Part shown: positions 9,542-43,972 of the stretch, piece by piece
How positions within the stretch are numbered: the first letter of the stretch is position 1
How the letters are laid out: each line of letters opens with the position of its first letter
Assembly (NCBI RefSeq): GCF_021190955.1
Contig: NZ_JAIOAO010000005.1
Coordinates: 62,001 to 126,000 of the forward strand
Source: Parachryseolinea silvisoli
GTDB taxonomy: Bacteria; Bacteroidota; Bacteroidia; Cytophagales; Cyclobacteriaceae
DNA length: 64,000 bases
Reading direction: 5' to 3'
Made by a program: the position numbers and the translations under genes
The notes under the pieces: model-generated
Told to the model about the DNA's origin: nothing
Databases searched by the model: none
What the model saw: only the letters and a program-made list of their open reading frames with translations

Positions 9542-9569
9542 GCGAACTAGTTATAAGTAAATCTACCGG

Positions 9570-11906: not shown

Positions 11907-12020
11907 GGACAGGACAGTTTGTTTTGTACGAATAATAGGCGCTGGAATGATAATTCTACTCATTTCGGTTATGCAAATGTTTGCGGAAATCTGGAACATA
12001 CAGAAAGACAACGTTTTACG

Positions 12021-16397: not shown

Positions 16398-16410
16398 AGG
16401 GATGATGCGA

Positions 16411-28085: not shown

Positions 28086-31000
28086 ATGCTACGGTCCCCC
28101 CTCGCCCGATGCGCTTCGCTGTGTTTGTTCTTCGTGCTTACGGGCATGGGGGGCTCTACGACGTACGGGCAGTTGCCGGCGATTACGTTTGAGACAATCT
28201 CGTCGAAGGACGGATTGCCGGGGAATACAGTGCTGTCGGCAGTACGGGATAAGGCGGGGTTTATGTGGTTTGGGACGCGGCAGCATGTGGTACGATATGA
28301 TGGCGCGTCGTTCAAAAGCCTTACCGATCCGGAGACCAGTTTTGTGACCGGGCTTGCCGCCGATGCCAACAATGACGTTTGGCTGTCGTCTGACCGGAAT
28401 GGCCTTTGCGTGATTCGCCACGATACACAGGCACTGGAGTGTTTTCCGCAAACACCGCAGCCTACTGACCTGGAGACTACCGGTTACTTTTTTCTCGATC
28501 GTCACCGCCAGGGTTGGTATAGCGACCGCGATGGGGTAAACCGCATCGACCTGGCTACGGGTAAACGCTTTCATTATCCCTTGCGCAAAACCACCTATGT
28601 GTGGATGAAGGCGGTGTTTACCGAGGACACCGATGGTAATCTCTGGGTGGTAGGCCGTGACAACGGCTTGTTCCGTTTTGACCGCGAGCGTGATACACTG
28701 CAATGCGTGCTGGGTGCCGATTGCACCCAGGGCCCGGGGGAAGAGCCGATGCTGTTCGCCACCGCCTGTGCCGGCGCGGACGCAACCGTGTGGCTCGGCT
28801 CCTACAATTATGGCCTGATACGCTACGACACCCGTCGCCATACCTGGCATCAATACGCTACCGGCCGCCGCAGCAACCAGGTGAATAGCCTCGCCCTCGG
28901 CAATGACGAGAACGGCCACCCCATCGTGTGGGTCGGCGATAACCAGGGACTGGGTGTCTTCCGTCCCGAGCAAGAGAAATTTTATTTCTTTCCGGATCTG
29001 CTACCCAATGTATATGAGGTGAACTTCATCTACCGCGACCCTGAAAACGGCATCGTGTGGACATGTACGTCAGAAGGTATTATCAAATACAACCCCGAGA
29101 GCAACCTCATCCGCACCCTCCTGCTGCCAACGGGACTGGTCTCTTTTCCCGTGATGGTGAACACGGTTGTGACCGATTTGCAAGACAGTACCCTCGTATA
29201 CCTGGGGCTTTCACACACGGGCATGGTCCGCTGGAACCGGCGACGAAACGAGTTCACCCTGATTCGCTATCCGAATGAGTCTGCCGACACCCGCTGGATG
29301 ATCGCCCGGGAAGATGGCACGCTCTGGATCGGCACCAATTGCTGGAATTATGTACGGCCGGGCATCCTGGTCTACGATACGCACCGCGAAAAATTTGTCA
29401 CCCCCCCACTGAGCCAGCAGGCCAACCGTTATTACTCCGTGCCGTTTTTTATGTATGGGCAATTTGATGCCCGGGACCGCCTGTGGGTTGGCAACTCAGA
29501 CGAAGGTGTGCACGGTGTCGACGACGGTACGCTTCGGGAGATCACGCCCTGGGATACCGCCCGGCAGCGTGCGTTGCTGCACAATAACAACCTCATCAAC
29601 GACATGCGTGTTGGCCCCGACGGCCGCCTCTGGTTGGGCACTATGCGCGGTGTATACTATGGCGACACGGCGACCCAGACCTTTGTACACGCCGATCCCG
29701 TGGGTACGGCGACACGCATACACGACCTTTCCGTCAACACCCTGTTGCACGACCGGCAAGGCAACCTGTGGGCTGCGCGCTGGGGCAGCCTGACCTGTAT
29801 GAACCCCGCGGGGGAACTGATGATGGTGCTGACGACCCGCGATGGATTTGTCGACCGTCAAATCCAGGGTCTTGCGGAAGATGATGCTGGCAATATCTGG
29901 GCTGGCAACTATGAAGGTTTATACTGCTATCACGCGGCGTCGGGGAATCTCAAACGCTTCACCCTGAACGATGGATTGATCAACAACAACACGCTGGGAC
30001 GCATATTCACAAACCTCCGCGGTAACGAGCTCTATATCGGTCAGCAGAATGGCATAAACGTGATCGACGTCGACCGTTTGTTCCGCCCAACGGCGGAAGC
30101 CACCGTCGGCATCAGCAGTTTCAAGGTCCACGAGCAGGAACGTACGATCGATCCTCGAAAGGTCATTCAGCTCTCGCCCGAAGACAATGCCTTCAGCATC
30201 GATTTCATTGCCCTGAACTATCGCAAAAAACACGACAACGTTTACGCGTACTACCTGGAGGGGTTTGAAAAAGACTGGAACCACAGCGGTTCGCAGCACC
30301 GGGCCTACTATACCAACCTCAGCCCTGGACGCTATACCTTACACCTCAAGGCCGGCGACGCCCTGGGGCATTGGAGTACGGAGGCGGCGATCGTTCAGCT
30401 CGAAGTGCTGCCCGCCTACTACGAAACAGCCTGGTTTCGCACGTTGGTATTCCTGGCGATCTGTGGTTTGCTGTATGCGTTGTACCGGTATCGGATCAAC
30501 CAGCTGCTCCGCCTGCAGCATGTACGCAACCGCATCTCGGCCGACTTGCACGATGAACTCGGCTCGTCGCTCAGCGGTATCAGCATCATGGGTGCGCTCG
30601 CGAAAAAAGACCTGCCGGAGACACATCCTTCGGCCTCCTTTGTCGACCGTATGGTGGAAGAAGTACAGCAGATCAGCAGCTCACTGGACGACATCGTCTG
30701 GAACATCAGTCCCCGCAACGACGCGCTGTCCAGCCTGGTGGCGCGTATGACGCGCTATGCCTCCGAGCTGTTCGAGGCGCGGCAAATACACTACACCATC
30801 ACCGTGCCGGAGCATTTTGAGCACCTTCGCCTGTCAATGGAGCAGCGGCGCAATTTCTACCTGATCTTCAAAGAGTCGGTCAACAACCTGATCAAGTACG
30901 CGCAATGCCAGCATGCCACCGTGCACATCGCCGTGGAGCGAAGAAAGCTCTGCCTGACCATTGCCGATGATGGCGTGGGTTTTGATCCGGGTGCTCCGCA

Positions 31001-31118
31001 CGGCCGGAATGGCTTGCTCAACCTGCGCCAACGGGCGAATAGTCTAAAAGGTACACTTCAAATCTTCTCCACCCGCGGAAAGGGCACTTCGTTACAGCTG
31101 GAGTTTCCGATCGGCTGA
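28086..31118 (+). CDS. propeller-type two-component sensor histidine kinase (HisKA_3)
   Basis: Transmembrane sensor of 1010 residues. A signal peptide (about 1-28) leads to a long periplasmic region with two-component-regulator-propeller repeats (DKAGFMWFGTRQHVVRYDGA, DTDGNLWVVGRDNGLFRFDR, DDAGNIWAGNYEGLYCYHAA). A Y_Y_Y domain follows (IDFIALNYRKKHDNVYAYYL) and one membrane helix at about 783-803 (LVFLAICGLLYALYRYR). The kinase part begins with NRISADLHDELGSSLSGIS, where His822 is the phosphorylation site. The ATPase part has FKESVNNLIKYAQC and TIADDGVGFDPG. No receiver or DNA-binding domain is present, so it is not a hybrid sensor. The partner is the response regulator 138 bases downstream. 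The ligand is unknown; the nearby GH78 and GH5 suggest a glycan (inference). Confidence 0.95.
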   Translation: MLRSPLARCASLCLFFVLTGMGGSTTYGQLPAITFETISSKDGLPGNTVLSAVRDKAGFMWFGTRQHVVRYDGASFKSLTDPETSFVTGLAADANNDVWLSSDRNGLCVIRHDTQALECFPQTPQPTDLETTGYFFLDRHRQGWYSDRDGVNRIDLATGKRFHYPLRKTTYVWMKAVFTEDTDGNLWVVGRDNGLFRFDRERDTLQCVLGADCTQGPGEEPMLFATACAGADATVWLGSYNYGLIRYDTRRHTWHQYATGRRSNQVNSLALGNDENGHPIVWVGDNQGLGVFRPEQEKFYFFPDLLPNVYEVNFIYRDPENGIVWTCTSEGIIKYNPESNLIRTLLLPTGLVSFPVMVNTVVTDLQDSTLVYLGLSHTGMVRWNRRRNEFTLIRYPNESADTRWMIAREDGTLWIGTNCWNYVRPGILVYDTHREKFVTPPLSQQANRYYSVPFFMYGQFDARDRLWVGNSDEGVHGVDDGTLREITPWDTARQRALLHNNNLINDMRVGPDGRLWLGTMRGVYYGDTATQTFVHADPVGTATRIHDLSVNTLLHDRQGNLWAARWGSLTCMNPAGELMMVLTTRDGFVDRQIQGLAEDDAGNIWAGNYEGLYCYHAASGNLKRFTLNDGLINNNTLGRIFTNLRGNELYIGQQNGINVIDVDRLFRPTAEATVGISSFKVHEQERTIDPRKVIQLSPEDNAFSIDFIALNYRKKHDNVYAYYLEGFEKDWNHSGSQHRAYYTNLSPGRYTLHLKAGDALGHWSTEAAIVQLEVLPAYYETAWFRTLVFLAICGLLYALYRYRINQLLRLQHVRNRISADLHDELGSSLSGISIMGALAKKDLPETHPSASFVDRMVEEVQQISSSLDDIVWNISPRNDALSSLVARMTRYASELFEARQIHYTITVPEHFEHLRLSMEQRRNFYLIFKESVNNLIKYAQCQHATVHIAVERRKLCLTIADDGVGFDPGAPHGRNGLLNLRQRANSLKGTLQIFSTRGKGTSLQLEFPIG

Positions 31119-31149
31119 TCTAAACCAGTGCGAGGGTAAAGAAGAAGAA

Positions 31150-31190
31150 CTACCCAAAGGGGTTATTGTAAACCTGGCGCCAACGTTTTT
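31150..31190 (+). promoter_or_regulatory. conserved upstream element, copy 1 (response regulator)
   Basis: CTACCCAAAGGGGTTATTGT (31150-31169) is repeated exactly at 31999-32018. About 10 variable bases further on, a second similar block follows: GCCAACGTTTTTGCTTTGTT here and GCCAAACGTTTTGTTTTGTG in the other copy. The element ends about 67 bases before the response regulator ATG. Position and conservation point to a promoter with an activator or autoregulation site. Confidence 0.65.
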
Positions 31191-31256
31191 GCTTTGTTCT
31201 ATAAAAGGTGTGACAACCTTCTGCTATTTCCCTGAACGCCACGACTAAACCGGTAT

Positions 31257-31895
31257 ATGCAATTGATCCGCGTTTCTATTTACGAAGACAATGCCAAGCT
31301 GCGCGACCTGCTCGAGCTGCTCATTACGAATGCCGAAGGGTTTGTGCTGGTGGGCTCTCATCCCGATTGCCGGTCGGTCGAAAGCGAGATTCGCCCGGAT
31401 GCGCCCGATGTCGTGATCATGGATATCGACATGCCCGGCCGCAGTGGTTTGGAAGGTGTGCGCATTGTCAAGGAATCCAATGTCAACATTCGCGTCATCA
31501 TGCACACCGTCTTCGACGACGACGACAAGCTGTTTACCTGTCTTAGTAACGGTGCCGACGGATACCTGCTGAAGAAAGATTCGTCGGCGCAGCTCGTCCG
31601 GGCGATCAAGGAGGTGTATGATGGGGGCGCGCCGATGTCGCCGGGGATTGCGCACCGGGTGTTACAGGCATTCCGTCAGCCAAAGGCTACGGCGAAAAAA
31701 GAGTATAATATTACGGATCGCGAGCAGCAGGTGCTGGAATTGCTGTCGCGGGGGTTTTCCTATCGGATGATCGGGCTGGAGATCAGCATTTCGCCGGAGA
31801 CAGTGAAGAAACATCTTAAGAATATCTATCAGAAACTGCATGTGCAGTGTGGGCCGGAGGCGGTGGCAAAGGCTATTCGTGAGCGGATTATTTGA
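31257..31895 (+). CDS. LuxR/NarL-type response regulator
   Basis: Cytoplasmic response regulator of 212 residues and likely partner of the sensor kinase encoded upstream. The receiver domain (about 1-120) has the acidic pocket SIYEDN, the phosphoacceptor Asp56 in VVIMDIDMPGRSG, and the conserved Lys in GYLLKKDSSAQL. The C-terminal LuxR helix-turn-helix (about 145-210) reads ITDREQQVLELLSRGFSYRM, then IGLEISISPETVKKHLKNIY and QKLHV. The gene has its own upstream region with the 20-bp element that recurs before the GH5 gene, so it may bind that element and control itself and the surface-protein operon (inference). Confidence 0.95.
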   Translation: MQLIRVSIYEDNAKLRDLLELLITNAEGFVLVGSHPDCRSVESEIRPDAPDVVIMDIDMPGRSGLEGVRIVKESNVNIRVIMHTVFDDDDKLFTCLSNGADGYLLKKDSSAQLVRAIKEVYDGGAPMSPGIAHRVLQAFRQPKATAKKEYNITDREQQVLELLSRGFSYRMIGLEISISPETVKKHLKNIYQKLHVQCGPEAVAKAIRERII

Positions 31896-31944
31896 GCACT
31901 GCACGGTTACAGTTCAATCCTTAGATACTCGTATAGTGCAGAGC

Positions 31945-31964
31945 TGGCGCAAGTTTAAGCGCCA
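31945..31964 (+). terminator. weak hairpin after the response regulator gene
   Basis: TGGCGC (31945-31950) and GCGCCA (31959-31964) form a short stem with an 8-base loop 50 bases after the response regulator stop. Only AAATTTC follows, not a real U-tract, so it is a weak terminator candidate. Confidence 0.35.
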
Positions 31965-31970
31965 AATTTC

Positions 31971-31997
31971 ACTCCCGCTCTCACACGCACACTGTTT
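31971..31997. repeat. single copy of the CTCACAC...CTGTTT repeat
   Basis: The bases ACTCCCGCTCTCACACGCAC followed by ACTGTTT closely match the right arm of the repeat at 25265-25286 (CTCCCGCTCTCACACTCACG, CTGTTT). A third related copy overlaps the stop of the gene at 5363 (5355-5373). All three stand at gene ends. The function is unknown. Confidence 0.5.
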
Positions 31998-31998
31998 C

Positions 31999-32041
31999 CT
32001 ACCCAAAGGGGTTATTGTCTGATGCCTGCCAAACGTTTTGT
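31999..32041 (+). promoter_or_regulatory. conserved upstream element, copy 2 (GH5 / surface-protein operon)
   Basis: Exact second copy of CTACCCAAAGGGGTTATTGT at 31999-32018, followed by the block GCCAAACGTTTTGTTTTGTG from 32028. It stands 65-84 bases in front of the GH5 start. The same spacing between the two blocks in both copies (within one base) indicates a functional promoter/operator rather than chance. Confidence 0.65.
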
Positions 32042-32082
32042 TTTGTGTTACCAAAACAACATTCCGAAGATTGAAACTGTGT

Positions 32083-33249
32083 ATGAAAAAATTCCCTCGT
32101 AAAAAGATTCTCTCTCTTTTAGGACATGCTTGCACCCTGGCCGTCTTGTTGACGGTCGTCGGCTGCGGCAGTGATGATGACACCGACAACGGTGGTGACA
32201 ACAACGATGACCCGAAGGCAACGTTTTATGTCGATGGTACGACACTGAAAGATCCCTGTGGCGACGCGGTGATCTTGCGGGGCGTGAACAAAATGAGCGT
32301 GTTCGATGAAGCGGATCCGAACGGAGACACGTACTTGCCGGAAATTGCTAAGTCGAACAGCAACTGTGTCCGCATTGTTTGGCAGGCTACCTATAGCAAT
32401 GGGCAGGCGGCGCAGATCTCCCAGCTCGAGACGTTGATCCAAAAGTGCATGGCGTTGAAGATGATCCCGATGGTTGAAATGCACGACGCTACGTGCAATC
32501 TGGGCGGCCTGTCCGCCGTAGTCGATTATTGGACGCGTGCCGAGATGGTCACGCTGGTACAAAAATATGAGCATGCCCTGCTGGTCAATATCGCCAACGA
32601 AGCGGGCGACTACGCGGTGACCACCGCGCCGTTTGTGGCCGCCTATAAAACAGCGATTACGCGTCTGCGCGACGCGGGCATCCGCACACCGCTCTTTATC
32701 GACGCGCCGGATTGCGGCAAGAACCTGGAAGTGCTGATACCCGCGGCGGCAACGCTGCAAGCCCATGACCCCGACCACAACCTGATGTTCTCGGTGCACA
32801 CGTATTGGTCAAAACTCGCGGTGTCCAACGTACAGCCTACCTTCATTAAGGACCAGCTGGATGCGGCCGCGGCGGCCAACGTGCCGCTCATCATCGGCGA
32901 GCTTTGTGCCTTCGGTGGCTGGGCGGGCAACGACTCGCCCGACTATGCTGCCTGCGGCGACGAAGGCGCCGTGGACTATAAGACTGTATTGCAAGAGGCA
33001 TCCCGTCACAACATGGGCTACCTCGTGTGGGAATGGGGACCCGGTAACGGTTACTATAATTATGATCCGCCGGTGCTTTGTCCGGGGATGGACATGACCA
33101 CGAATGGTACGTATCAATCCATTGTCAACATCGCGGCCGGCGATGCCACAAAGGGATGGATCCGCGACGTCGTCATCGACCATGCGAATGGGCTTCGCAA
33201 GAGCGCCACCAAGACGGCGTATATCGAAGGCGGTTTCTCCTGCGATTAA
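32083..33249 (+). CDS. GH5 family glycosidase lipoprotein, beta-mannanase-like
   Basis: Surface or periplasmic endo-glycosidase, probably acting on beta-mannan. The start MKKFPRKKILSLLGHACTLA (32083; an earlier in-frame codon at 32038 overlaps the promoter element) gives a 388-residue lipoprotein with lipobox VVGC and an acidic linker (GSDDDTDNGGDNNDD). GH5 features are ILRGVNKMSVFDEADPNGDT, NCVRIVWQATYSNGQA, EMHDATCNLGGLSAVVDYW, the acid/base Glu173 in VNIANEAGD, FSVHTYWSKLA, the nucleophile Glu273 in LIIGELCAFGGW and LVWEWGPGNGYY. The HDAT and NIANE forms resemble the GH5_8-type mannanases (recalled). It is followed 32 bases later by the outer-membrane barrel gene and probably heads that operon. 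Confidence 0.87.
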   Translation: MKKFPRKKILSLLGHACTLAVLLTVVGCGSDDDTDNGGDNNDDPKATFYVDGTTLKDPCGDAVILRGVNKMSVFDEADPNGDTYLPEIAKSNSNCVRIVWQATYSNGQAAQISQLETLIQKCMALKMIPMVEMHDATCNLGGLSAVVDYWTRAEMVTLVQKYEHALLVNIANEAGDYAVTTAPFVAAYKTAITRLRDAGIRTPLFIDAPDCGKNLEVLIPAAATLQAHDPDHNLMFSVHTYWSKLAVSNVQPTFIKDQLDAAAAANVPLIIGELCAFGGWAGNDSPDYAACGDEGAVDYKTVLQEASRHNMGYLVWEWGPGNGYYNYDPPVLCPGMDMTTNGTYQSIVNIAAGDATKGWIRDVVIDHANGLRKSATKTAYIEGGFSCD

Positions 33250-33281
33250 CACGCTCTTCAAAAAGACTCAACCTCTCCCCC

Positions 33282-35021
33282 ATGCTGTTTGTATCAATAT
33301 TATCCGGCCACCGGCCGGACAGGGTATGGCTTTGCCTTTTCGCGCTGCTGATGGCTGCCCAGTCAGGTCAGACACAGGATCTCGCCCAGCTCGACCAGGT
33401 CAAGCCGTTCGACATCCAGGGCAACATCGAGGCCCGCGCTGTATTCTACGATGCTAACGGCATCCCTGCGCGCTACTTACCCTTCAACTATTTAATTTCC
33501 GGCACGCCGGTGCTGTCGGTATATTCTGTACAGATACCGGTATACTTCAGCTTTAGTCGTCAGCAAAGCTCGTTTACGCAACCCTTCAACCAATTTGGTC
33601 TCAGCCCCCAGTATAAATGGATTACGGTGCACGGTGGCTATCGCAACCTGCACTACTCGCCGTTTACCCTCGCGGGCCACACCTTCCTGGGCGGTGGTGT
33701 GGACTTGCGTCCGGGAAAGTGGCGGTTCAGCGGTATGTACGGCCGCTTTAACAAGGCCACGGTGCTGGATACGCTGCAAGGAGTATACATCGAAAACTTT
33801 TCTTACAAACGCACCGGTTATGCAGCGCGCGTCGGCTATGGTACGGATGCCAGTTATTTCGACCTGATCGCGTTGCATGCGCAGGATGAACCCGGCAGCG
33901 CCCCGGTGGAGCGCACGGCCCTGTTCGACTCGCTCAAGATCACGCCCGCCGAAAACTGGGTGACGGGCTACCAGACACGCCTGACTTTCCTGCAAGGGAA
34001 GCTCATCTTCGAGAGCGACGGAGCGGTCAGCATCTACACGGCAGACCAGCGCCTGCCGGCGATCGAAGACAGTACGCTGCGGGACGATCTTTCGTTCGTT
34101 GAGCGTTTTGTCCATGTGAACTATAGCACCGAAATCTATAGTGCCTTCCAGGCGAGCCTGGCCTACCGCGTCAAGCGTATGGGGGTTAAACTTCAATATC
34201 GCCGCATCGACCCGGGCTATCGCTCGATGGGCGCATACTTTCTCAACAACGATCTTGAAAACTGGACGGTCAACCCTACTCTTACGCTCTGGCAAGGCAG
34301 GATCCGGTTTGTCGGTAGCCTGGGCTTTCAGCGGGACAACCTACAGGACAAAAAACGGGCAACGTCGCACCGCGTGATCGGCGCGGCGAACCTTACGGCC
34401 GACCTGACCGAACGGTGGGGTATCGACCTCTCGTATACCAATTTCAGTAACACCCAACGCGCCGGCACCGTACGTTTCGCCGACTCCCTGCGAGTAGCCC
34501 AGTCTACGCAGAACCTGTCGATATCACCGCGTTATATGAAGCTTACGGCGCTGCATAGCCATTCGGTCTTGCTGTCGTTTAACCTCAATACATTTCGTGA
34601 GCTGAACGACCAGCGTACCCTGGAAGGCACCGGTAACGACATTACCACGCAGACCTACTTTGCCACATATCAGCTGGGCTTCACGGCCGCGCGTGCATCG
34701 CTCTTTCTCACCGCCAACTATGCCCGCCTGGGCAACGATCAGCTACAAGACCGCAACAGCGGGCTGACCCTTGGCGCATCAAAGCCCTTTGCGGCGGGCA
34801 AGGTCGTCCTGACCGGTTCCACGGGGTATATACTCAGTGACCGCAACGGCGAGCAGGGTTACATGCTGAACGAGTCCTTGCAAGTGCGGTATACTCTCCA
34901 TCCCAAACACAGCGTGCAGGCCATGGTCGTTTTCCTCGGCAATTATCCCGACCAGGTCTCGGAGATCCAACGGCGGTTCACCGAGCTGCGCGCAGAAATA
35001 GGCTACAACTTTAACTTCTGA
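33282..35021 (+). CDS. outer-membrane beta-barrel protein of unknown function
   Basis: A 579-residue exported protein that I assign to the outer membrane by its pattern only. It has a signal peptide (about 1-32, CLFALLMAAQSGQTQ). Many amphipathic strands of 9-12 residues with aromatic ends follow (VHGGYRNLHYSPFTLAGHTF, WRFSGMYGRFNKATVLDT, TGYAARVGYGTDASYFDLIA, RIRFVGSLGFQRDNL), and the protein closes with RRFTELRAEIGYNFNF, a C-terminal Phe as in outer-membrane barrels. No TonB box, plug or enzyme motif is seen. It ends 2 bases before the 1995-residue protein gene, so the products probably work together. The start at 33282 is preferred over upstream in-frame codons that overlap the GH5 gene. 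Confidence 0.8.
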   Translation: MLFVSILSGHRPDRVWLCLFALLMAAQSGQTQDLAQLDQVKPFDIQGNIEARAVFYDANGIPARYLPFNYLISGTPVLSVYSVQIPVYFSFSRQQSSFTQPFNQFGLSPQYKWITVHGGYRNLHYSPFTLAGHTFLGGGVDLRPGKWRFSGMYGRFNKATVLDTLQGVYIENFSYKRTGYAARVGYGTDASYFDLIALHAQDEPGSAPVERTALFDSLKITPAENWVTGYQTRLTFLQGKLIFESDGAVSIYTADQRLPAIEDSTLRDDLSFVERFVHVNYSTEIYSAFQASLAYRVKRMGVKLQYRRIDPGYRSMGAYFLNNDLENWTVNPTLTLWQGRIRFVGSLGFQRDNLQDKKRATSHRVIGAANLTADLTERWGIDLSYTNFSNTQRAGTVRFADSLRVAQSTQNLSISPRYMKLTALHSHSVLLSFNLNTFRELNDQRTLEGTGNDITTQTYFATYQLGFTAARASLFLTANYARLGNDQLQDRNSGLTLGASKPFAAGKVVLTGSTGYILSDRNGEQGYMLNESLQVRYTLHPKHSVQAMVVFLGNYPDQVSEIQRRFTELRAEIGYNFNF

Positions 35022-35023
35022 TC

Positions 35024-38000
35024 ATGAAATCGCTCCCTGTTCTTATGCTCTCGTGCTTTCTCGCCCTGTTCGCCACGCTGCCGGGGCGGGCACAAAGTCC
35101 CCTGCGTATTCAGGTACAGGTAGCCAAACCGTACCCCAACAAGATCAACGACTTTCAAAGCAACCCTAACCAGGTGGTGATCGTCATTACCAACGCGTCG
35201 CGTGTGTCGTATGACATTCAGTTATTGGGCTCGGTGACGGGCGACAATAATATTGCGGTGCGCACAGCGGCCGGCTATCGCAGTGCCCGCCCCATTACAG
35301 TGGCGCCGATGGGCATGACGCGTGTTACCGCGGAGGAAGTCGGCGAGCTCTTCAACCCCAACCACCTGGTCTTTGCGGGCATCACCCGCGAGGCGGCCAT
35401 CCGCATGAATGGATTGCCCGAAGGTATATACCAGGTATGCGCCCACGCCATCGACTATACCACACGCACACCCCTGTCGGAAGAAGAGCCCCTGGGTTGC
35501 AGCAATTTGTTTATGGTTTCCAACCTGGAGCCACCGGTAATTATCCGGCCGTTCGCCGACGACTCACTGCGCGCGTATAGCCCGCAGAACATGGTCTTTA
35601 GCTGGTCGTTGCCACCGGGGGCACCCCCGACCACGCAGTATACCGTGCGACTGGTCGAAGTTCCCGACATGCACCGGAATCCCTTCGACGTCATGCGGTC
35701 GTCGCGTCAGCCCTATTATGAAACTACGGTGACGGGTGCGCCGACATTACTCTACGGACCTGCCGAGCCGCCACTTACGCCCGGCAGGCGCTATGCTTTG
35801 ATGGTCACGGCGATCGATCCCTTTACAAATGTTGTATTTCGAAACGGCGGACGCAGCGAGGTCGTCGCCTTTACATACGGCACGCCTGCACGCCGTAATA
35901 CCACCGGTAGCACGCTGGTCCGGGCCACGACCACGATTCCCCTGGCGATCCCCCGCACGACAATCAAGGGCAAGATCAACTGGTACTTTAAAGCAACGGA
36001 GGAAAAACAGTCACCCCTGGTAAGCGCCGTGGTCGTCAATCACTTTGTGGAAACATCGTTGATCAACGCCATGCTCGACCCTTCCGCCGGCACAAGCAGT
36101 ACAACCCAGTTAAACCAGGTTATGCATATGACGGCTATTACCAACGCGCCGGTGACGCCCACGACGCCGGCCAACACACCGCAACAAAATACAACCTACC
36201 GTCCGACCCAACCCCTGGTTGCCACGCCGCGCAGCACCATCAGCAACGCGCAGGCGGCCGCCGTCGGCATCTATGGCGGCGGTACGGTCAACACGGTTAC
36301 ATCCACCCCCTTAAGCGCCGCGGCCAGCCTGGTGGATCGTGTCGCCGATCTGGTGGAAATAGGAAATAACCCCTACCCGCTCCAACGTGTACCTGTCAAA
36401 GTCTATGCCGTCCATCCCTCTGGCGGAGAGTCACTGCTGACATCGACCGTAACGGACGGGGAAGGGGTTTTTAACGTCTCGTTTATCAATACTGCCTTTT
36501 ACAATCCCGCCCTGGGCGACAAAATAAAGGTATATATCAACCACCCCGATTTCCTGCTGCAGCGAAACGTACTGTCGTTGCCGCGGCCCGACTCGGTGGG
36601 CCACTTCGACCTCGGCACGCTGTCGGCCCTCGCGCGCACATTTCGGTTTAAGCCTCATGTGGTCGACGAAGAAGGGCAACCGGTGTCCGCCGCCGTCGTG
36701 GAAGTATACCGCCCCTCGTCGTATTATTGGCAGGAGCCTAACCACCGTAAAGAAGGCAACGGTGGCGGCGATGGCGCCCTCGTCAACGGACAGCTGTGTA
36801 CAAAGGTGGCGTCTATTCGCTCAGGCAGCGCCGGCCCCCGATTATTTTATAGCGACGATCCCCTGGACCGCTATATAGTCAAGGTGGTGCATTCGAAGCT
36901 ATACCCCCTCGTCACCACACTACAAGTCACTGCCGACGGCAGCGCACGCGAGTCCATTCTCACGATTGAGAAAACATTCACGGCCAATACACGCATGCCC
37001 ACGCTGAAAGGACAAGTGGCCAAACGTCTGCAGCCCGTGGTCGATGTGAAAGGTGCCATTGTTACCGTATACTTTAACGACGACGCGGTGTTTGGCAAGA
37101 ACCCCGGCAATACAGTAGAAAGCCTCGGTAATCACCTACTCCAGGGTACAGTCATGAGCGCCTTGCCAAAACCCGCTTCAAACCTCCAAACGACCCAGCC
37201 TGTAAACAGCGTGAGTGCAAAGAGTGAAAGCGGAATTAAAGTGGCTGGCAATGCGAATCTCCTGGCACCGGCGTCCACCACGAGTAGTACGATAGCATTG
37301 CAAAGTTATGTGGGCAGCACCGCGACTAGTGTAGCAGCGGCCACACAGCTTGGCAAAAGCAGGTCCACCACCACGGATTCCTCCGGCAATTTCCTGTTTA
37401 CCGAGCTGCCCATCAGCCAAACGCCCACCCGCATCACGATCCGCATACCTGGATCGGAGCGCGTATACGAGTACACCGCACTCATCAATGTGAAAGGACA
37501 GGAAATCGACATGGGCAAAATCCTGTTAGACATGAAAGTATTGACACTGGCCGGTGTGGTGAAAGATGAGCAGCAACAACCGGTCGCGCGACCGGTCCTG
37601 CGGTGGGCGTCCGGCGGTTCGCCGTTCGAGGGCGATGCGCAGGGGCGCTTTGTCACGACCAATACAGAAGGCACCGACACACTCGTCATTACCAAACTTG
37701 GATTTGAGACAAAACGTGTTCCGGTGAAGTTAACGGAAACAACGGCCTCCACTGGAAATAGTAGTCAACCGTCCGCTTCCGCGGTGATTCAATCGGTCGG
37801 TCAATGGCCGCGCGTGGTAACACAGCTACCTTCGCTGGTTCCCGTGACGGCGCAGGCACCGGCCTTCACGTCCCAGGGGCTCGGACTGTATGCGGTACAC
37901 ACGGCCAACCTCCCGCTGACCAGCCCGACAGAGAAAAAGGGCTCGTCGAAAAAGAAAGTCAACGCCGCCAACGCGATGATACAAGCGGATCTGGCATTCG

Positions 38001-41000
38001 CTCCCTTATATTCTTCGCTGTTTACCGCCGAGCAGATTCCGTCCAATGCTGTCGACCTGGGGACCATCATTGTACGAAAAAAAATCGGCCGCCTGCGGGT
38101 AAAGGTTGTTAAAGATGCTGACAAGACACCGGTATTGGGTGCGCGCATCACCATCGTCGACACACCCCTGACCGGACAAACCGATGCCCAGGGAACGTGG
38201 TATTCGGAAGTACCGGGCGGTGACATTGTGGTCGAGGTCAGCGGCCCGGCGGGTAGCGCGCTCGTTACGACGCAGAAACAAGTAACACCCCATGACACCG
38301 AAGTGACGGTATTGGAAGTCGCCTTAAAAAGCGGCGTCACCATTCGGGGTACCGTGACGGCGGCGGGGCAACCCGTGGGGGAAGCCGCGGTGCGCGTCGA
38401 TGGATTCGATTATTTGCACGCTACGACGGCTACCAATGGCCACTATACCCTGGTTGTTCCGGCGGGTGATTATACTTTACAGGTTACCAAAACCGGATAT
38501 GTCGGTGCAGAAAAGCAGCAAACGTTCAGCGGTACGCAGGCTACCGTAGACTTCGTGCTAACCAGGCCCTCGTTTGATATCAGTACGCTCCTCGGCTTCC
38601 CGGTAGAAATCGAACGACTCGAAGGTACGGGTAACACCCGCACGTTGTCGGGTGCTTTTATCAACCTGCCGGGCAACGCGCTGTTCCAGGTAAAACCCGG
38701 CATGCGCATTCCGTTCGACGACGTTGTCATGTCTATTGCCGGCGGTGTCGCCGTGCCCCAGGGGGGACAGGTGAACCTGTCGGTTACCAGCCTGGAGGCA
38801 AAAGCTTTCGGTTATCTCCCCGTTCGGATCAAGAATGGCGAGGCCGCCCTGGCGATTCGCCAGGTTCCGGGTCAACCTACACAAGGTCAACTGGTCGGTA
38901 TACCGGAGATCGACTACGGTAAGTTTATGCCGATCCCCCTGGGGCTCACGCTGCCAGCGGGCGCTAAACATACTTTGGGTACAACGCCGACTGTAATCTT
39001 ACAGTCGGGCAATGCACTGCCCGTACCGGATGCGTTGGACATCTCGTTCGCGAGTGGCCAGTCCGTCGAGCTCTATGCCTTTGCCTGCACGTTGGGGACC
39101 CCCGGATGCCAGGTAAAAGCCGACGGTTTGCATTTGCAAGGCGAGCTTAGTTTATCCGGTGTGCCGTTGCTCAACAACAGCAAGTTCAAGATCCGGGAGC
39201 TCCTGATCGGTACAGATGGCTCGGTACGCACCGTCACGGCGGATATAGGGGATGGTCTCAACTTCAGCCTCGCCGGATGGGCTGCGGGTATACAAGCTTT
39301 GTCGATCAATGAAAATGGACTCAAGCTTACCGGTGATCTTACCGTGCGTGTGCCGGCATCGACACCGTCGAAGATCGGGTTTAACAATCTTACCATCAGC
39401 AAAACGGCGCTCTATGGTGGCGACTTCTCGCTGCCTGCAGCGGGGCTTGACATCTTCGGCATCGTGCAGATGAAGCCCGGGAGCCGGCCGTTGTCCTTTG
39501 GACGCATCGGCAACACCAGCGTGCACTTCATCGGTGGCTCGGGCGAGTTCCGGCTGCCGAAGTTTATCGACAAGACGCTTTCCGTCGAGTTCTTCCAGAT
39601 CCAAACCGATGGCAACTTCCAGGCCGTTGTGCCGACGAACTTCAATGTGCCCCTGCTGGGCGTGGCGGACATCTCGGTGCGCAGCATCGGTTTTAATACC
39701 AAAGGCAGTATCGGTATTGACGTGATGGGTGATTTTAACCTGCATGCCATTCCGTTCTTCCAGGCTTCGGTGGGAGGTGTACATTTTGGTCCCAACGGAT
39801 CGGTATCAATCGATGAGCTGGGGGTGGGCTTTGATTTAGTAGGTATTGCCCGGCTCAATGCCCGCGCGCGTTTTATCGACCAGCCGGAACGCAAAGGCTT
39901 TGAAGGCAGCGGCAATATTAAGCTCACCGGTCTGCCGCTCGAGCTCGGCCTCGGGTTTAAGTACTACAAATTGCCCAACGGCATTGAAGTAGGTGGATTG
40001 CTTCGCGCGGGTGTGATGATCCCGGTGGGGGCTGTTACCATTACTCAGGTCGAGGGTGAGTTCTCGCTCAATACCCAGGATAAAAAGTGGATGGGCCGGC
40101 TCGGCGGCGCTGTTAGTATTGGCGGTATGAACGCTGTGCTGGCGATCAAGCCGCTCTCCATTACAGTCGAGAACGGCCCGGTGTTTAAGCTCGACGGTGG
40201 TTTGGCGGTGCTCGATCAAACCATCGCCACGGCCCACGGCATTCTCGACTTTCCACGGTCGTACTTCAGCTTTACGTTTGAGCAGAATCTGGATTTCCTG
40301 CCGGAGCTCTTTACCGTGGGCGGCGGCGGCGCGTTTGTTGTCTCCACAGCGCAGAACAACACGTACTGGCTAATGGGCGTACACTATCACGCCAGCATGC
40401 TGGGCGGCCTGGTACGCGGCAATGCCAACATTACCGCCGGCTGGGGAATGAATGTCGACGCCCACCCCGAGCACCGCGACTATACCAGCTTTATCGATCG
40501 GAATTACCTCGACAACGGTGCCCTGAAAGGCATCCATGTAGCCACGTATGCGGGCATCAACTTCGACACCGGTGAACGTGGCTTTGCCGGCGTGGCTTCA
40601 GGCCGCGCCTGGTATAACAACTACGGCGCTGTGAACCTGGACATGGGCTTTGGTCGCGGACGCTATGGCTTCCGCGTGGCGGCCGGGTGGGAAGCCGGTG
40701 CGTACCTGAAGATCGCCGACATCAACATCGCAGGTCTCGAGGCGGGTATAAACGGTGAGCTGAAGGGCTTCTACGACTACCCCGCCCGTTACCTGTCGTT
40801 CGAAGGCTCGCTGCGGGCCAAGCTCATTGCGTGGATCGGTGCATGCGACCAGCAGTGCTCGAACAAGATCTGCTGGGGTGGCTGCTTCAACGCGTGCATC
40901 TTCGGATGTGAGCTCTGCCCGATCCCCGTCGGCGGCAAGCTCTGTCTTCGGCCGGGCGTAAACGCACGCTATAATTCTGCAGACGGGTTCGGATTGTCCA

Positions 41001-41011
41001 TTGACTTCTAA
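35024..41011 (+). CDS. giant modular surface protein (TANFOR-like N-terminus, carboxypeptidase-regulatory-like repeats)
   Basis: A 1995-residue exported protein without known function. A signal peptide (about 1-24, FATLPGRAQ) is followed by an N-terminal part to about 290 (KPYPNKINDFQSNPNQVVIV, GLPEGIYQVCAHAIDYTTRT, GCSNLFMVSNLEPPVIIRPF) that resembles the TANFOR-type domains of Bacteroidota surface proteins (recalled, moderate certainty). Thr/Ser/Pro-rich linkers lead to several beta-sandwich modules of the carboxypeptidase-regulatory type, the clearest at about 1024-1060 (LGARITIVDTPLTGQTDAQG) and 1105-1185 (GTVTAAGQPVGEAAVRVDGF). From about 1190 a very long Gly/hydrophobic beta-rich region follows. 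A cluster of eight cysteines stands at about 1940-1970 (CDQQCSNKICWGGCFNACIF onward). The end is FGLSIDF. It shares the A of TAATG with the next gene, so translation is coupled. Confidence 0.85.
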   Translation: MKSLPVLMLSCFLALFATLPGRAQSPLRIQVQVAKPYPNKINDFQSNPNQVVIVITNASRVSYDIQLLGSVTGDNNIAVRTAAGYRSARPITVAPMGMTRVTAEEVGELFNPNHLVFAGITREAAIRMNGLPEGIYQVCAHAIDYTTRTPLSEEEPLGCSNLFMVSNLEPPVIIRPFADDSLRAYSPQNMVFSWSLPPGAPPTTQYTVRLVEVPDMHRNPFDVMRSSRQPYYETTVTGAPTLLYGPAEPPLTPGRRYALMVTAIDPFTNVVFRNGGRSEVVAFTYGTPARRNTTGSTLVRATTTIPLAIPRTTIKGKINWYFKATEEKQSPLVSAVVVNHFVETSLINAMLDPSAGTSSTTQLNQVMHMTAITNAPVTPTTPANTPQQNTTYRPTQPLVATPRSTISNAQAAAVGIYGGGTVNTVTSTPLSAAASLVDRVADLVEIGNNPYPLQRVPVKVYAVHPSGGESLLTSTVTDGEGVFNVSFINTAFYNPALGDKIKVYINHPDFLLQRNVLSLPRPDSVGHFDLGTLSALARTFRFKPHVVDEEGQPVSAAVVEVYRPSSYYWQEPNHRKEGNGGGDGALVNGQLCTKVASIRSGSAGPRLFYSDDPLDRYIVKVVHSKLYPLVTTLQVTADGSARESILTIEKTFTANTRMPTLKGQVAKRLQPVVDVKGAIVTVYFNDDAVFGKNPGNTVESLGNHLLQGTVMSALPKPASNLQTTQPVNSVSAKSESGIKVAGNANLLAPASTTSSTIALQSYVGSTATSVAAATQLGKSRSTTTDSSGNFLFTELPISQTPTRITIRIPGSERVYEYTALINVKGQEIDMGKILLDMKVLTLAGVVKDEQQQPVARPVLRWASGGSPFEGDAQGRFVTTNTEGTDTLVITKLGFETKRVPVKLTETTASTGNSSQPSASAVIQSVGQWPRVVTQLPSLVPVTAQAPAFTSQGLGLYAVHTANLPLTSPTEKKGSSKKKVNAANAMIQADLAFAPLYSSLFTAEQIPSNAVDLGTIIVRKKIGRLRVKVVKDADKTPVLGARITIVDTPLTGQTDAQGTWYSEVPGGDIVVEVSGPAGSALVTTQKQVTPHDTEVTVLEVALKSGVTIRGTVTAAGQPVGEAAVRVDGFDYLHATTATNGHYTLVVPAGDYTLQVTKTGYVGAEKQQTFSGTQATVDFVLTRPSFDISTLLGFPVEIERLEGTGNTRTLSGAFINLPGNALFQVKPGMRIPFDDVVMSIAGGVAVPQGGQVNLSVTSLEAKAFGYLPVRIKNGEAALAIRQVPGQPTQGQLVGIPEIDYGKFMPIPLGLTLPAGAKHTLGTTPTVILQSGNALPVPDALDISFASGQSVELYAFACTLGTPGCQVKADGLHLQGELSLSGVPLLNNSKFKIRELLIGTDGSVRTVTADIGDGLNFSLAGWAAGIQALSINENGLKLTGDLTVRVPASTPSKIGFNNLTISKTALYGGDFSLPAAGLDIFGIVQMKPGSRPLSFGRIGNTSVHFIGGSGEFRLPKFIDKTLSVEFFQIQTDGNFQAVVPTNFNVPLLGVADISVRSIGFNTKGSIGIDVMGDFNLHAIPFFQASVGGVHFGPNGSVSIDELGVGFDLVGIARLNARARFIDQPERKGFEGSGNIKLTGLPLELGLGFKYYKLPNGIEVGGLLRAGVMIPVGAVTITQVEGEFSLNTQDKKWMGRLGGAVSIGGMNAVLAIKPLSITVENGPVFKLDGGLAVLDQTIATAHGILDFPRSYFSFTFEQNLDFLPELFTVGGGGAFVVSTAQNNTYWLMGVHYHASMLGGLVRGNANITAGWGMNVDAHPEHRDYTSFIDRNYLDNGALKGIHVATYAGINFDTGERGFAGVASGRAWYNNYGAVNLDMGFGRGRYGFRVAAGWEAGAYLKIADINIAGLEAGINGELKGFYDYPARYLSFEGSLRAKLIAWIGACDQQCSNKICWGGCFNACIFGCELCPIPVGGKLCLRPGVNARYNSADGFGLSIDF

Positions 41012-43068
41012 TGCTTACGCTCATGAAACGCATGTATTGTTTATCACTTTTATTGATGCTGGTTGTCGTTGGCGCGTCGGCCCAGGAGGCTACCCTGCCT
41101 GTGCGATACTCCTTCCGCGACGGCACCTATCTATACTTTGCCGACCGTGCGCTCGGACCCGATGCGCCGTATGAAAAGATCACCGCGGTACGCATCAGCC
41201 GCAACAGCGGCAAAGGCCCTGCGCGGCTCGTGACGGTAGGCCGCCCCACTTCGGCCAGCGCCTTCCGGCAGATATGCGGCGAATCGGCCTGGTCGCAGCT
41301 GAAGCTGATCAAAACCCTGCGCGACGACAACGCCGCCTGGGAGTATATACGTGCCCATGTCCTATTGAGCGATTATGGCACACTGTCGTTCGACATGGCC
41401 TTCCGTCAGGCGATGGGCAGCGCATACCTGGATAAGGAAGCGGCGGGTCTTGCCGCCGGGAAATCGTGGACTTACCAGGCCGAGCTGCTCGACGCGACAG
41501 GACTCGTAGTCAAAACCGTTACGGGCACGATTGCCGGTGGACAAACGCCGCTTGCTATAGGCCGCGCACACCGGCACCGTACGTTTGCCACAGACTCGGC
41601 GGTTTCAGCCCAGTGGTATATTTTGCCCGGCAAGCCTTACACCGGATTGCTGATGGCCGATGTATACCGGCAAGACGCCGGCAAGGGTCCCTATAAAAAA
41701 CTGGCGTCTCCCCTGTTTGCCGTCGCGAAGGGCGACTCCATGCTATTTTACGTGCATGAATCGGTACGACCCGGTGCGCTGTACCGGTATTACATTCGGC
41801 CTACGGACGACCTGGGCAATGCCGCGCAGCCCTCCGATACCATCAGCTTGCTGGCCGTGGACTTTGCCAGCCTGCCTTTACTGCGCAACGTGCAGGCGCG
41901 TGACACGGCAAACGGCATTGCCTTGCAATGGGCTCCGATCGGCGACCTGCCCTACGTGGTCGGCGTGGAGATCCAACGATCGCGCGATGCACGGGGTGAC
42001 TACGTCGTGATCGACACCGTGGAAGCGTCCCGTCATACATACTTCGACAAACAGGTGTTTCCGGATATTCCTTATTACTATCGCTTCCGCACGTTGGCGC
42101 TCAAAGGCCGCGAACGCAACGCGGGCTATACCGGCTACGCTACGGCCTCCGTGAAAAACACCAATCGAAATCCTGATCCCCCGTACGGCTTGCGTGGCAC
42201 GCTGGTCAAAGGTAAGGTACACTTGCGTTGGCAGCCCGTGCCCGATACCGATGTCTACGGCTACTATGTTTACCGCAGCGTTTCGGGGAGTGACCGGCTC
42301 GAAGTCCTCTCGAACGGATTACAAACAACCGAATATACAGACACGTCGTCCATTGGAGGACGCACCCAATACGTCTATGGCGTGAAGGCCGTGAACCGGA
42401 ACAGTCTCGAAAGCGACTTCTCCAACCTGGTCACGATGCGCCAAAGTGTGCTGCAGCTGCCGCAGGAACCTGCCGGGGTCAACGCGTGGTTGAACAACCG
42501 CACGGTGGTACTGGACTGGCCTTCGGCGGCCCGCGCAGATTATGCCGTTGCCGGCTATACGGTATACCGCCGCGAAGCACAGCCTGCCAACACGTTTGAT
42601 AGGCGTCAGTCGGCCGCTGCACAGGCGGTTGCGCTCAAGTTTGTGTTGCTGAACCGCGCATTGCTGACCACCACACATTTTGAAGATGCCGGCGTACAGC
42701 CCGCCAAGACCTATGAGTATGCGATCGCTTCGGTCGACGCATTTGGCGCGGAAAGTACCTTCTCCCCTTTTGCACGCATTGCAACTACGGTACCGGTACG
42801 CGTCGTATCGACGTGTACCGTACGCAAAGTGACCGCGGGCGTCGAGGTCGCCTGGGAGCCATCGTTCACCACCGGTGCGGCGACGGTCACGATCTATCGA
42901 AAAAAGGCGGGCGAGGTCTCGTATCAAAAGACCGCGAGCGTGGCCCGACAGGTCACCTCCTATGTCGACAAGACCACCCGGAAAGGCACCTTATACAGCT
43001 ATGTTATCAGCGCCGAAGTCGGCGTACAAACACTTGCCCGCAGTGAAGAAAAAAACATCCGCTACTAA
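41011..43068 (+). CDS. exported protein with fibronectin type III-like domains
   Basis: A 685-residue secreted protein with a signal peptide (MKRMYCLSLLLMLVVVGASA; this Met is codon 5, at 41023). I keep the ATG at 41011 because it overlaps the stop of the giant gene as TAATG, but 41023 is equally possible. An N-terminal region of its own type (residues ~25-300) is followed by at least three FN3-like repeats with the pattern W-x-P...Y-x-V-Y-R (GLRGTLVKGKVHLRWQPVPD, YGYYVYRSVSGSDRLEVLSN; WLNNRTVVLDWPSAARADYA, VAGYTVYRRE; GVEVAWEPSFTTGAATVTIY). It has no lipobox, no membrane helix and no enzyme motif. The role is probably adhesion or scaffolding in the same complex as the giant protein (inference from the tight operon). 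Confidence 0.85.
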   Translation: MLTLMKRMYCLSLLLMLVVVGASAQEATLPVRYSFRDGTYLYFADRALGPDAPYEKITAVRISRNSGKGPARLVTVGRPTSASAFRQICGESAWSQLKLIKTLRDDNAAWEYIRAHVLLSDYGTLSFDMAFRQAMGSAYLDKEAAGLAAGKSWTYQAELLDATGLVVKTVTGTIAGGQTPLAIGRAHRHRTFATDSAVSAQWYILPGKPYTGLLMADVYRQDAGKGPYKKLASPLFAVAKGDSMLFYVHESVRPGALYRYYIRPTDDLGNAAQPSDTISLLAVDFASLPLLRNVQARDTANGIALQWAPIGDLPYVVGVEIQRSRDARGDYVVIDTVEASRHTYFDKQVFPDIPYYYRFRTLALKGRERNAGYTGYATASVKNTNRNPDPPYGLRGTLVKGKVHLRWQPVPDTDVYGYYVYRSVSGSDRLEVLSNGLQTTEYTDTSSIGGRTQYVYGVKAVNRNSLESDFSNLVTMRQSVLQLPQEPAGVNAWLNNRTVVLDWPSAARADYAVAGYTVYRREAQPANTFDRRQSAAAQAVALKFVLLNRALLTTTHFEDAGVQPAKTYEYAIASVDAFGAESTFSPFARIATTVPVRVVSTCTVRKVTAGVEVAWEPSFTTGAATVTIYRKKAGEVSYQKTASVARQVTSYVDKTTRKGTLYSYVISAEVGVQTLARSEEKNIRY

Positions 43069-43069
43069 C

Positions 43070-43972
43070 ATGCAACGTTTACACCGAGCTCCGCTCGTGG
43101 CGATCGCCACCGTCTTGCGCACACTTCCGTTTCTCGCCTTGTATGCGCTGGCGGGCTGTGCCGAAGATTATACCGGCCGCGATGGCAATGGGATCGTGAT
43201 CGATAGCATCCGGCCCACCGAGGGATATCCGGGCACGGTCTTCCGGCTCTATGGCCGTGGCTTCTCCCCCATTGCCGACAGCAACCATGTGTTTATCAAC
43301 GGCACAGCGGCATCAGTAGGCGATCCCGCTTCGCTGTCGACGCTGTTGGTAACCGTGCCGTATGAGGCTACAACGGGTACTGTAATGATCAAGGCCGCGG
43401 GCCTGCGCGGCAGCGGTCCGGCCTTTACCGTATTGGATATACCGCGCATCGATCTGGCGGATACCTATACGGAAGGAAAAACATTAACCATAATCGGTGA
43501 CCATTTTGCTACCGACATACGTCTGCTCGAAGTATACTTCAACGGCGAAAAGATGAGCATCTACAACGCGGGCAAGACCAACGACGGCAGGCAGTACCTG
43601 GAGACACCATACCCGCCCTCTGGTGGTGACAATCCTATTTCCATTGTCGTTGTCTCGGAAGGGATCAAGAGCTTGCCATATACATACACTGTCAAGCCTC
43701 AGCTAAACGAACTGGAGTATTTTAACAATATCGACGGTAACACATATGTATCCACAACCATCTCGCTGTACGGTCAATATTTCGGTCTCGATGCGCCGGG
43801 CAACGAGATTCAGTTAGCCGACGGCTCCGGGCCGTTTACCGGCGACATGAAGATTGTCAGGTGGTCGCCGTACAGAATCGATCTTGAAGCGGTCGCGACG
43901 AATAGCGCCTTTTCCACGATTGCGGTGGTTGTTCACGGCGTTACCTCGGATACGCTATTCTTCCGTTATTAA
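43070..43972 (+). CDS. IPT/TIG-domain lipoprotein
   Basis: A 300-residue lipoprotein, last gene of the surface-protein operon. The start at 43070 follows the previous stop by one base and gives a signal with lipobox (LPFLALYALAGC). Three IPT/TIG-type Ig folds follow: IDSIRPTEGYPGTVFRLYGR GF (about 40-115), RIDLADTYTEGKTLTIIGDH (about 125-210) and NELEYFNNIDGNTYVSTTIS (about 215-300). Such domains are frequent in surface glycan-binding and SusE/F-like proteins. No catalytic residues are seen. Its stop overlaps head-on with the stop of the convergent DUF3748 gene (43969-43972). Confidence 0.85.
   Translation: MQRLHRAPLVAIATVLRTLPFLALYALAGCAEDYTGRDGNGIVIDSIRPTEGYPGTVFRLYGRGFSPIADSNHVFINGTAASVGDPASLSTLLVTVPYEATTGTVMIKAAGLRGSGPAFTVLDIPRIDLADTYTEGKTLTIIGDHFATDIRLLEVYFNGEKMSIYNAGKTNDGRQYLETPYPPSGGDNPISIVVVSEGIKSLPYTYTVKPQLNELEYFNNIDGNTYVSTTISLYGQYFGLDAPGNEIQLADGSGPFTGDMKIVRWSPYRIDLEAVATNSAFSTIAVVVHGVTSDTLFFRY

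Follow-up and report, generated by a model that had tools for sequence, protein, structure and literature searches.

In Parachryseolinea silvisoli, a 64,000-nucleotide stretch of contig NZ_JAIOAO010000005.1 (the whole of which we call the window) holds a block of seven open reading frames (ORFs), all on the + strand, between positions 28086 and 43972. They code for a propeller sensor histidine kinase, a LuxR/NarL-type response regulator, a glycoside hydrolase family 5 (GH5) protein, a putative outer-membrane barrel, a giant protein, an FN3-like secreted protein and an IPT/TIG protein. We found that the conserved core of the block consists of the barrel, the giant and the FN3-like gene, and that this core is made of two heritable units: the barrel with the TANFOR-type N-terminal domain of the giant, and, at least for payloads of the window's type, the remainder of the giant with the FN3-like gene. 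We consider it likely that the block is a modular outer-membrane display or export system carrying a non-toxin payload. An initial annotation had given the same seven genes, order and strand, with gaps of 32, 2, -1 and 1 bases between the GH5, barrel, giant, FN3-like and TIG genes, all of which the ORF calls reproduced. Its reading of the block as an undescribed apparatus that handles a glycan under control of the two-component pair is partly supported. The set does appear to be undescribed (no description was found in the literature searched, outside which lie most subscription journals and bioRxiv), and the conservation check that it proposed returned a core kept far beyond the genus, mostly without GH5. 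Handling of glycans can at most be counted as a local adaptation. The TANFOR domain, two identical 19-base boxes and a SusC-like/SusD pair upstream had gone unmentioned.

The extent of conservation was established with the C-terminal domain of the giant (hereafter the C-domain). One more genome carried it among 295 of the family (G120; genomes and loci are designated by G and L numbers), and eight more among 395 of the phylum, always in open frames of 1908-2117 amino acids. A C-domain profile matched 9/277 genomes at 1e-5, the own genome included, with G580 matching over the first 122 positions only; G443 joined through the profile, giving 11 C-domain loci in total with the window. Identity to the window ranges from 21 to 69% across distant families. 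The barrel lies directly upstream of the giant in 10/11 of these loci, the eleventh being L098, whose contig ends about 0.9 kb before the giant, and an FN3-like gene lies directly downstream in all 11. The initial annotation had suggested that barrel and giant act together; that they belong together is borne out by this adjacency and by the co-divergence described below. The other genes of the block recur rarely. GH5 is present in two of the nine loci where it could have been seen (L098 and L099 being those where it could not): the window and G120, both of one family, with 60% identity between the two proteins. The TIG gene is found in 3/11 (window, G120 and G697) and a two-component pair of the window's type in 1/11; the stretches searched for the 10 other loci brought up nothing similar to the kinase at E 1e-5. 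The kinase would thus represent local regulation, outside the conserved core.

Several neighbours of C-domain loci deserve a record of their own. The block of G697 is preceded, on the same strand, by a receiver-like ORF and by a sensor kinase that differs in type from the window's (L094:2307-5233; best NCBIfam match FimS). A Ser/Thr protein kinase with TPR repeats lies beside the block in two loci, divergent in one (L096:13006-15639) and directly upstream on the same strand in the other (L100:14684-17479); ORFs of similar length, known by length alone, occupy that place in L095, L097, L101 and L111. Four ORFs of ~3720 amino acids (L170-L173, in G329, G443 and G350) have short C-domain profile matches and may be distant payload relatives.

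At its other end, the giant matches TIGR02542, the NCBIfam model for TANFOR, over residues 30-165 (E 3.6e-11; 43.2 bits, below the curated cut-off of 67), so that an N-terminal TANFOR domain is present, though under that cut-off. In a search with the giant of 59 genomes, including its own, 25 matched, and outside the window the matches covered either residues ~1-312 or short pieces of the CarboxypepD region. Besides the window there were 52 TANFOR places, four of them in the own genome. We fetched 40 of them in stretches no longer than 20 kb; the other 12 lie on short or truncated contigs, apart from one more place in G019, its seventh. In 32/40 of the fetched loci a same-strand homologue of the window barrel is present, and 21/40 have an FN3-family gene, in one case on the opposite strand. 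As a control, among 20 regions of 20 kb chosen blind to content from five of the same genomes, the barrel and TANFOR profiles matched 0/20 each and the FN3 profile 1/20.

The association also holds when approached from the barrel. A barrel profile (19 sequences) matched 149/395 phylum genomes at 1e-10, while TIGR02542 matched 13/395, none above its cut-off. We selected 20 strong full-length barrel matches by score: in 19 of them, all but L112, the barrel is directly followed on the same strand by a TANFOR-like giant (established by hand in L124), the N-terminus of which matched, at 3e-27 to 7e-90, a TANFOR profile built on the earlier loci. Of the 19 giants, twelve are complete (1351-3462 amino acids) and seven run off the stretch; an FN3-family gene follows the giant in 10/11 strong-barrel loci whose stretch extends well past it. 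Among 20 weaker barrels, sampled from among the matches listed, 12 have a TANFOR domain next to the barrel, separated from it by one gene or fused to it, three have an edge-cut long ORF with its start missing, and five show no TANFOR. Overall, 31/40 barrel loci have a TANFOR partner. Two of the weaker barrels are fused to the domain in a single ORF: L145:10700-13543 (947 amino acids; TANFOR 17-250, barrel 360-896) and L147:6711-9302 (863 amino acids; TANFOR 6-263, barrel 318-795), whose barrel parts score 2e-48 and 1e-43. Because the N-termini of barrels normally face the periplasm, the TANFOR domain in these fusions would be on the periplasmic side, unless threaded through. The barrels of L134 and L136 are directly followed by a TANFOR domain that stands alone as a protein of 289 or 317 amino acids. 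The window presents a barrel of this family, an adjacent TANFOR-type N-terminal domain and an FN3-like gene.

Some of the giants behind barrels are very long. Seven are cut at 2854-3453 amino acids (L110, L118, L119, L120, L121, L124 and L127), and the one in L126 is complete at 3462. The idea of a fused FN3 part within such giants was dropped, as seven of these ORFs run off the stretch and the following gene is out of view. One barrel ORF, L113:9539-11998, has ~257 additional C-terminal residues, and frames of about the same length are found again in family f25.

We then compared the histories of the parts, using 62 loci (the six barrel-less TANFOR loci of G019, L112, L124 and the 20 weaker-barrel loci were excluded). 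The barrel, TANFOR and FN3 trees had 59, 60 and 39 rows, the loci absent from the last having no FN3-family match of 350 residues, and included 10, 9 and 11 of the 11 C-domain loci, respectively. Distances in the barrel and TANFOR trees were strongly correlated (r = 0.94; 57 loci, 1596 pairs), and remained so within genomes (r = 0.84; 35 pairs; 0/1000 label permutations as high). The distribution of C-domain loci conflicts with these trees: it takes five state changes on the barrel tree, with a single clade rejected (approximately unbiased test, p = 3.9e-5), and six on the TANFOR tree (p = 5e-37), the single-clade test having been posed after a first tree was in view. On the FN3 tree, one change suffices (support 95). 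Individual pairs of loci show the same mosaic. In the cleanest one, L099 and L115 of a single genus, barrels are 66% identical and TANFOR domains 74%, with 17% for FN3 and no similarity for the rest of the giant (E 0.43). The window and L108 share 49% in the barrel and 40% in TANFOR, with 18% in FN3 and almost nothing in the rest of the giant (E 0.007), whereas the window and L095 share 22, 26, 32 and 32% for barrel, TANFOR, FN3 and giant remainder. The exchange boundary lies near residue 300 of the giant. Co-divergence, tree conflicts and mosaic pairs therefore separate two heritable units, which we call chassis and payload.

A number of observations weigh against a modular system of this kind. 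The barrel is missing from 8/40 TANFOR loci: L045, L059 (at a contig end) and six in G019. Conversely, no TANFOR domain lies within the stretch in 6/40 barrel loci (L112, L139, L140, L142, L143 and L144). Linked genes can co-diverge without contact, so the correlation proves a unit and not an interface. The FN3 gene follows the barrel less closely (r = 0.59; 37 loci), without significance within genomes (9 pairs; permutation share 0.6). Last, the trees are quick ones, made without a mixture model, and the FN3 tree carries a warning of long branches, one of which lies inside its C-domain side. As to the six G019 loci (L060-L063, L066 and L068), they may form a divergent branch or an orphan type.

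Mechanistically, the chassis would comprise the dedicated beta-barrel and the TANFOR-type domain. The latter would dock onto the former, probably from the periplasm, and the two would form an outer-membrane dock. The payload, i.e. the rest of the giant with the FN3-like gene, would be swapped as one 3' cassette among chassis lineages; in the window the outer membrane would hold it or let it pass, and the FN3-like protein would serve it, with GH5 and the TIG lipoprotein as local passengers. Ahead of both the regulator and GH5, transcription would probably start behind a regulator box. That the 3' part and the gene following it are exchanged together points to a platform for the display of swappable payloads. 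More tentatively, we can envisage an undescribed two-partner outer-membrane route in Bacteroidota and relatives, in which a POTRA-less barrel and a TANFOR dock deliver or hold interchangeable giant payloads. If so, toxin tips would be one payload class, others being amphipathic beta proteins like that of the window, and a general surface chassis would have the known polymorphic toxins as one of its uses.

An involvement of the type IX secretion system (T9SS) in the export of the giant is possible, if doubtful. SprA was found in 27/27 genomes selected for barrel or C-domain and in the own genome, G000 (it was the one T9SS gene searched), but it is also present in 117/148 background genomes, and 19 of the 20 negatives listed belong to one family; we therefore dropped co-occurrence as evidence. 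A type A C-terminal domain (CTD) protein lies beside the TANFOR gene in L049, and PMC12618676 and PMC9143113 describe cognate PorP/SprF shuttles for type B cargo. Against this, none of the seven proteins has a T9SS C-terminal sorting domain at E 0.01 in Pfam or NCBIfam, neither database gave a PorP/SprF family for the barrel, and the conserved domain is N-terminal, not C-terminal.

Table 1. Features of the seven-gene block (positions in the window; chassis and payload are the proposed roles).
Feature	Position	Strand	Remarks
Propeller sensor histidine kinase	28086..31118	+	1010 aa; Pfam Reg_prop, Y_Y_Y, HisKA_3, HATPase_c
Box 1, TACCCAAAGGGGTTATTGT	31151..31169	+	87 bases before regulator ATG; candidate regulator binding site
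LuxR/NarL-type response regulator	31257..31895	+	212 aa; Pfam receiver, GerE
Box 2, identical 19 bases, TACCCAAAGGGGTTATTGT	32000..32018	+	64 bases before GH5 ATG
GH5 beta-mannanase-like putative lipoprotein	32083..33249	+	388 aa; PF00150 E 1.2e-16
Putative barrel, chassis part 1	33282..35021	+	579 aa
Giant, whole	35024..41011	+	1995 aa
Giant residues 1-300, TANFOR-type N-domain, chassis part 2	35024..35923	+	
Giant residues 301-1190, linker with CarboxypepD_reg domains	35924..38593	+	Pfam
Giant residues 1191-1995, conserved ~805-residue C-domain, payload	38594..41008	+	
FN3-like secreted protein, payload partner	41011..43068	+	685 aa
IPT/TIG putative lipoprotein	43070..43972	+	300 aa; Pfam TIG in two stretches

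The names in Table 1 do not all have the same basis. 'Barrel' and 'FN3-like' are readings that we retained as names. The FN3-like protein has no Pfam or NCBIfam family at E 0.01, and the label given to it in the initial annotation found no backing there. Neither has the barrel any such family at E 0.01, and its profile has no match in the PDB at E 1. The barrel label derives from a signal peptide (read by eye), from the aromatic residue that aligned members have at or close to their C-terminus, and from a mild strand alternation, which is weak evidence (mean z 2.9 over 19 members and 2.7 for the window barrel, with one enzyme control at 2.5). For the giant, Pfam at E 0.01 returned two CarboxypepD_reg families and nothing else, in four stretches of the linker, the best being residues 1106-1180. 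Among PDB relatives of the GH5 protein beta-mannanases rank best, and both expected catalytic glutamates are presumably present, judging the motif by eye. GH5 and TIG proteins have what we take, also by eye, to be lipoprotein signal motifs; they look like lipoproteins and may act beside the apparatus in the host's family.

These features bear on the proposal that the block is a glycan-binding or -degrading apparatus under the two-component pair, which we regard as unlikely. In its favour are the beta-mannanase-like GH5 directly before the barrel in the window and G120, the presence of glycoside hydrolases and of a SusC-like/SusD pair in other parts of the window, and the two identical boxes before the regulator and GH5. 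These boxes are the only perfect copies in the genome and fit a regulator that would control both its own gene and the GH5 operon. With up to three mismatches (expectation in the window, 0.03), four further genome places appear, adjoining genes without common function, and a reversed control pattern also gave one match. A weaker box in G120 (5 mismatches) was left unused as near chance by estimate. Scans for sigma-70-type promoters (14 vs 9.5 in shuffles, s.d. 2.9) and terminators (19 vs 16.1, s.d. 3.6) found the sequence barely richer than shuffles. The suggested control by the two-component pair is partly borne out, in that the boxes before regulator and GH5 fit it, but finds no support as a general feature, the pair being confined to one C-domain locus. 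Kinase and regulator pairs like that of the window are not enriched either (1/40, 0/9 and 1/40 loci vs 1/20 random regions), Pfam gave no carbohydrate-binding family on the giant, GH5 is absent from most assessable loci, and a paralogue of the own genome has a nuclease tip. We rejected a glycan core as the general function on the counts of GH5 and of the pair and on the lack of enrichment over random regions.

The window has other genes of carbohydrate metabolism. An alpha-L-rhamnosidase gene (25358-28042), on the kinase strand, ends 43 bases before the kinase and may share its transcript. SusD and a SusC-like plug protein lie at 14487-19641 on the minus strand, ~8.4 kb upstream of the kinase. 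Together with GH95 and GH36 enzymes at 7328-12011, also on the minus strand, they make up an ordinary cluster resembling a polysaccharide utilization locus (PUL). On the far side, a Laminin-G protein at 49333-52455 has a T9SS sorting domain (Por_Secre_tail, 1.2e-6).

The nature of the payload is where the main structural rival arises. The window's payload appears to be a ~805-residue amphipathic beta domain with TamB-like alternation and no recognised toxin. Its C-domain has no Pfam family at E up to 5 and its profile no PDB match at E 1, while one of ten members gave DUF6603 at E 0.005. Strand alternation in the window reached 35 segments vs ~14 in shuffles (z 6.7), and z was at least 4.6 in 9/10 members (2.6 in L099). 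With the same statistic, which is home-made, has few controls and speaks to long amphipathic strands rather than to fold, pieces of the own genome's two TamB proteins scored 4.8 and 6.7, and three AsmA pieces scored 3.0. Values for five beta-helix proteins ran from -1.7 to 2.4, and those for two TonB-type barrels were 2.1 and 2.4; SprA reached 1.7 (4.1 at window 13), and four other proteins lay between -0.7 and 2.5. A cluster of cysteines at 40844-40945 (giant residues 1941-1974), one of them invariant in 10/10 members, may be disulphide-bonded.

In the rival scheme the C-domain would be a TamB/AsmA-like groove forming a periplasmic bridge that brings lipids or hydrophobic molecules to the barrel, with nothing displayed outside. 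The alternation, equal to that of TamB pieces and, at window 9, above beta-helix proteins, TonB-type barrels and SprA, would agree with it, as would the periplasmic TANFOR domain suggested by the fusions L145 and L147. Homology of the C-domain to TamB/AsmA was however rejected by Pfam and by single-sequence hhalign comparisons (probability 0.4% or less), and we retained the physical signature alone; in addition, no inner-membrane anchor was seen in the giant (by eye). A paralogue in the own genome (L032), whose chassis is of the same kind, has an AHH nuclease domain (2.9e-6) at its end. For these reasons we judge the bridge decidedly unlikely.

As for other payloads, the protein after the TANFOR gene in L033, also of the own genome, carries an ADP-ribosyltransferase domain (2.8e-7), L031 and L034 have fn3-type domains and weak matches only, and four giants of other genomes have no toxin family. 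That the window's C-domain is itself an unrecognised polymorphic toxin, with the FN3-like gene as immunity factor, is very improbable: a TANFOR N-terminus, the giant size, one downstream gene moving with the payload and the published status of TANFOR proteins as polymorphic toxins (main text of PMC7073777) speak for it, but so long a C-domain is kept across distant families and has no toxin family, FN3-family genes also stand beside other payloads, and the FN3-like protein is of large size, with a signal peptide (by eye).

Compared to known systems, the block resembles each in part. With PULs it shares a two-component system and a putative lipoprotein glycoside hydrolase encoded next to an outer-membrane protein; it differs in that its core recurs without the hydrolase and in that no SusC or SusD family occurs among the seven proteins in Pfam or NCBIfam, as the initial annotation had noted. 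With TamB and AsmA proteins it shares long amphipathic strand alternation of similar density in the C-domain, but neither detectable homology nor an inner-membrane anchor. Two-partner secretion of the CdiB-CdiA type has a barrel gene beside a giant gene, a conserved N-terminal domain of ~300 residues, and a swappable 3' part with the next gene. The window has barrel and giant, a conserved N-terminal domain of this size and a 3' part that is swappable together with the gene after it. It differs in that Pfam at E 0.01 found no TPS domain on the giant, and Pfam and NCBIfam gave no TPS, POTRA or Omp85-type match for the block; over 19 barrels the only matches to Pfam were in single members, at E 0.024 or worse. 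At most, the block would work like two-partner secretion, and it would not be a member; type V secretion is reportedly scarce in the phylum. With SprB/SprF and the T9SS type B pairs, as PMC9143113 and PMC12618676 present them, the block has in common a large, presumably surface-exposed protein and a cognate barrel, often adjacent; it differs in lacking type A or B CTDs and a PorP/SprF family, and its recognition domain would be N-terminal.

The closest relatives are the TANFOR proteins, described in the main text of Jana, Salomon and Bosis (2020; PMC7073777) as polymorphic toxins of Bacteroidetes with hypothesised T9SS export, with SprB, Fn3, PKD and CTD domains enriched among their neighbours. 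The window has in common with them a signal peptide followed by an N-terminal TANFOR domain, a protein of giant size, a polymorphic C-terminus and a genome with T9SS. It differs from them in that no recognised toxin was found in the block (an unknown fold being possible), and the next genes code for the family-less FN3-like protein and the TIG lipoprotein, with no recognised immunity gene (an unknown family again being possible). From its annotated domains, the locus would be a variant of the TANFOR kind in which we looked for toxin and immunity gene and recognised neither. The main text of PMC7073777 has no occurrence of the word 'barrel', nor did we see in it a dedicated barrel partner, the exchange beyond residue ~300 with the downstream gene or the TANFOR-barrel fusions. 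What is new here is that the TANFOR domain comes with a dedicated, unnamed barrel family. A barrel that diverges with this domain, and is sometimes fused to it, is a direct candidate partner for TANFOR export, and makes the question of that export testable by one gene deletion.

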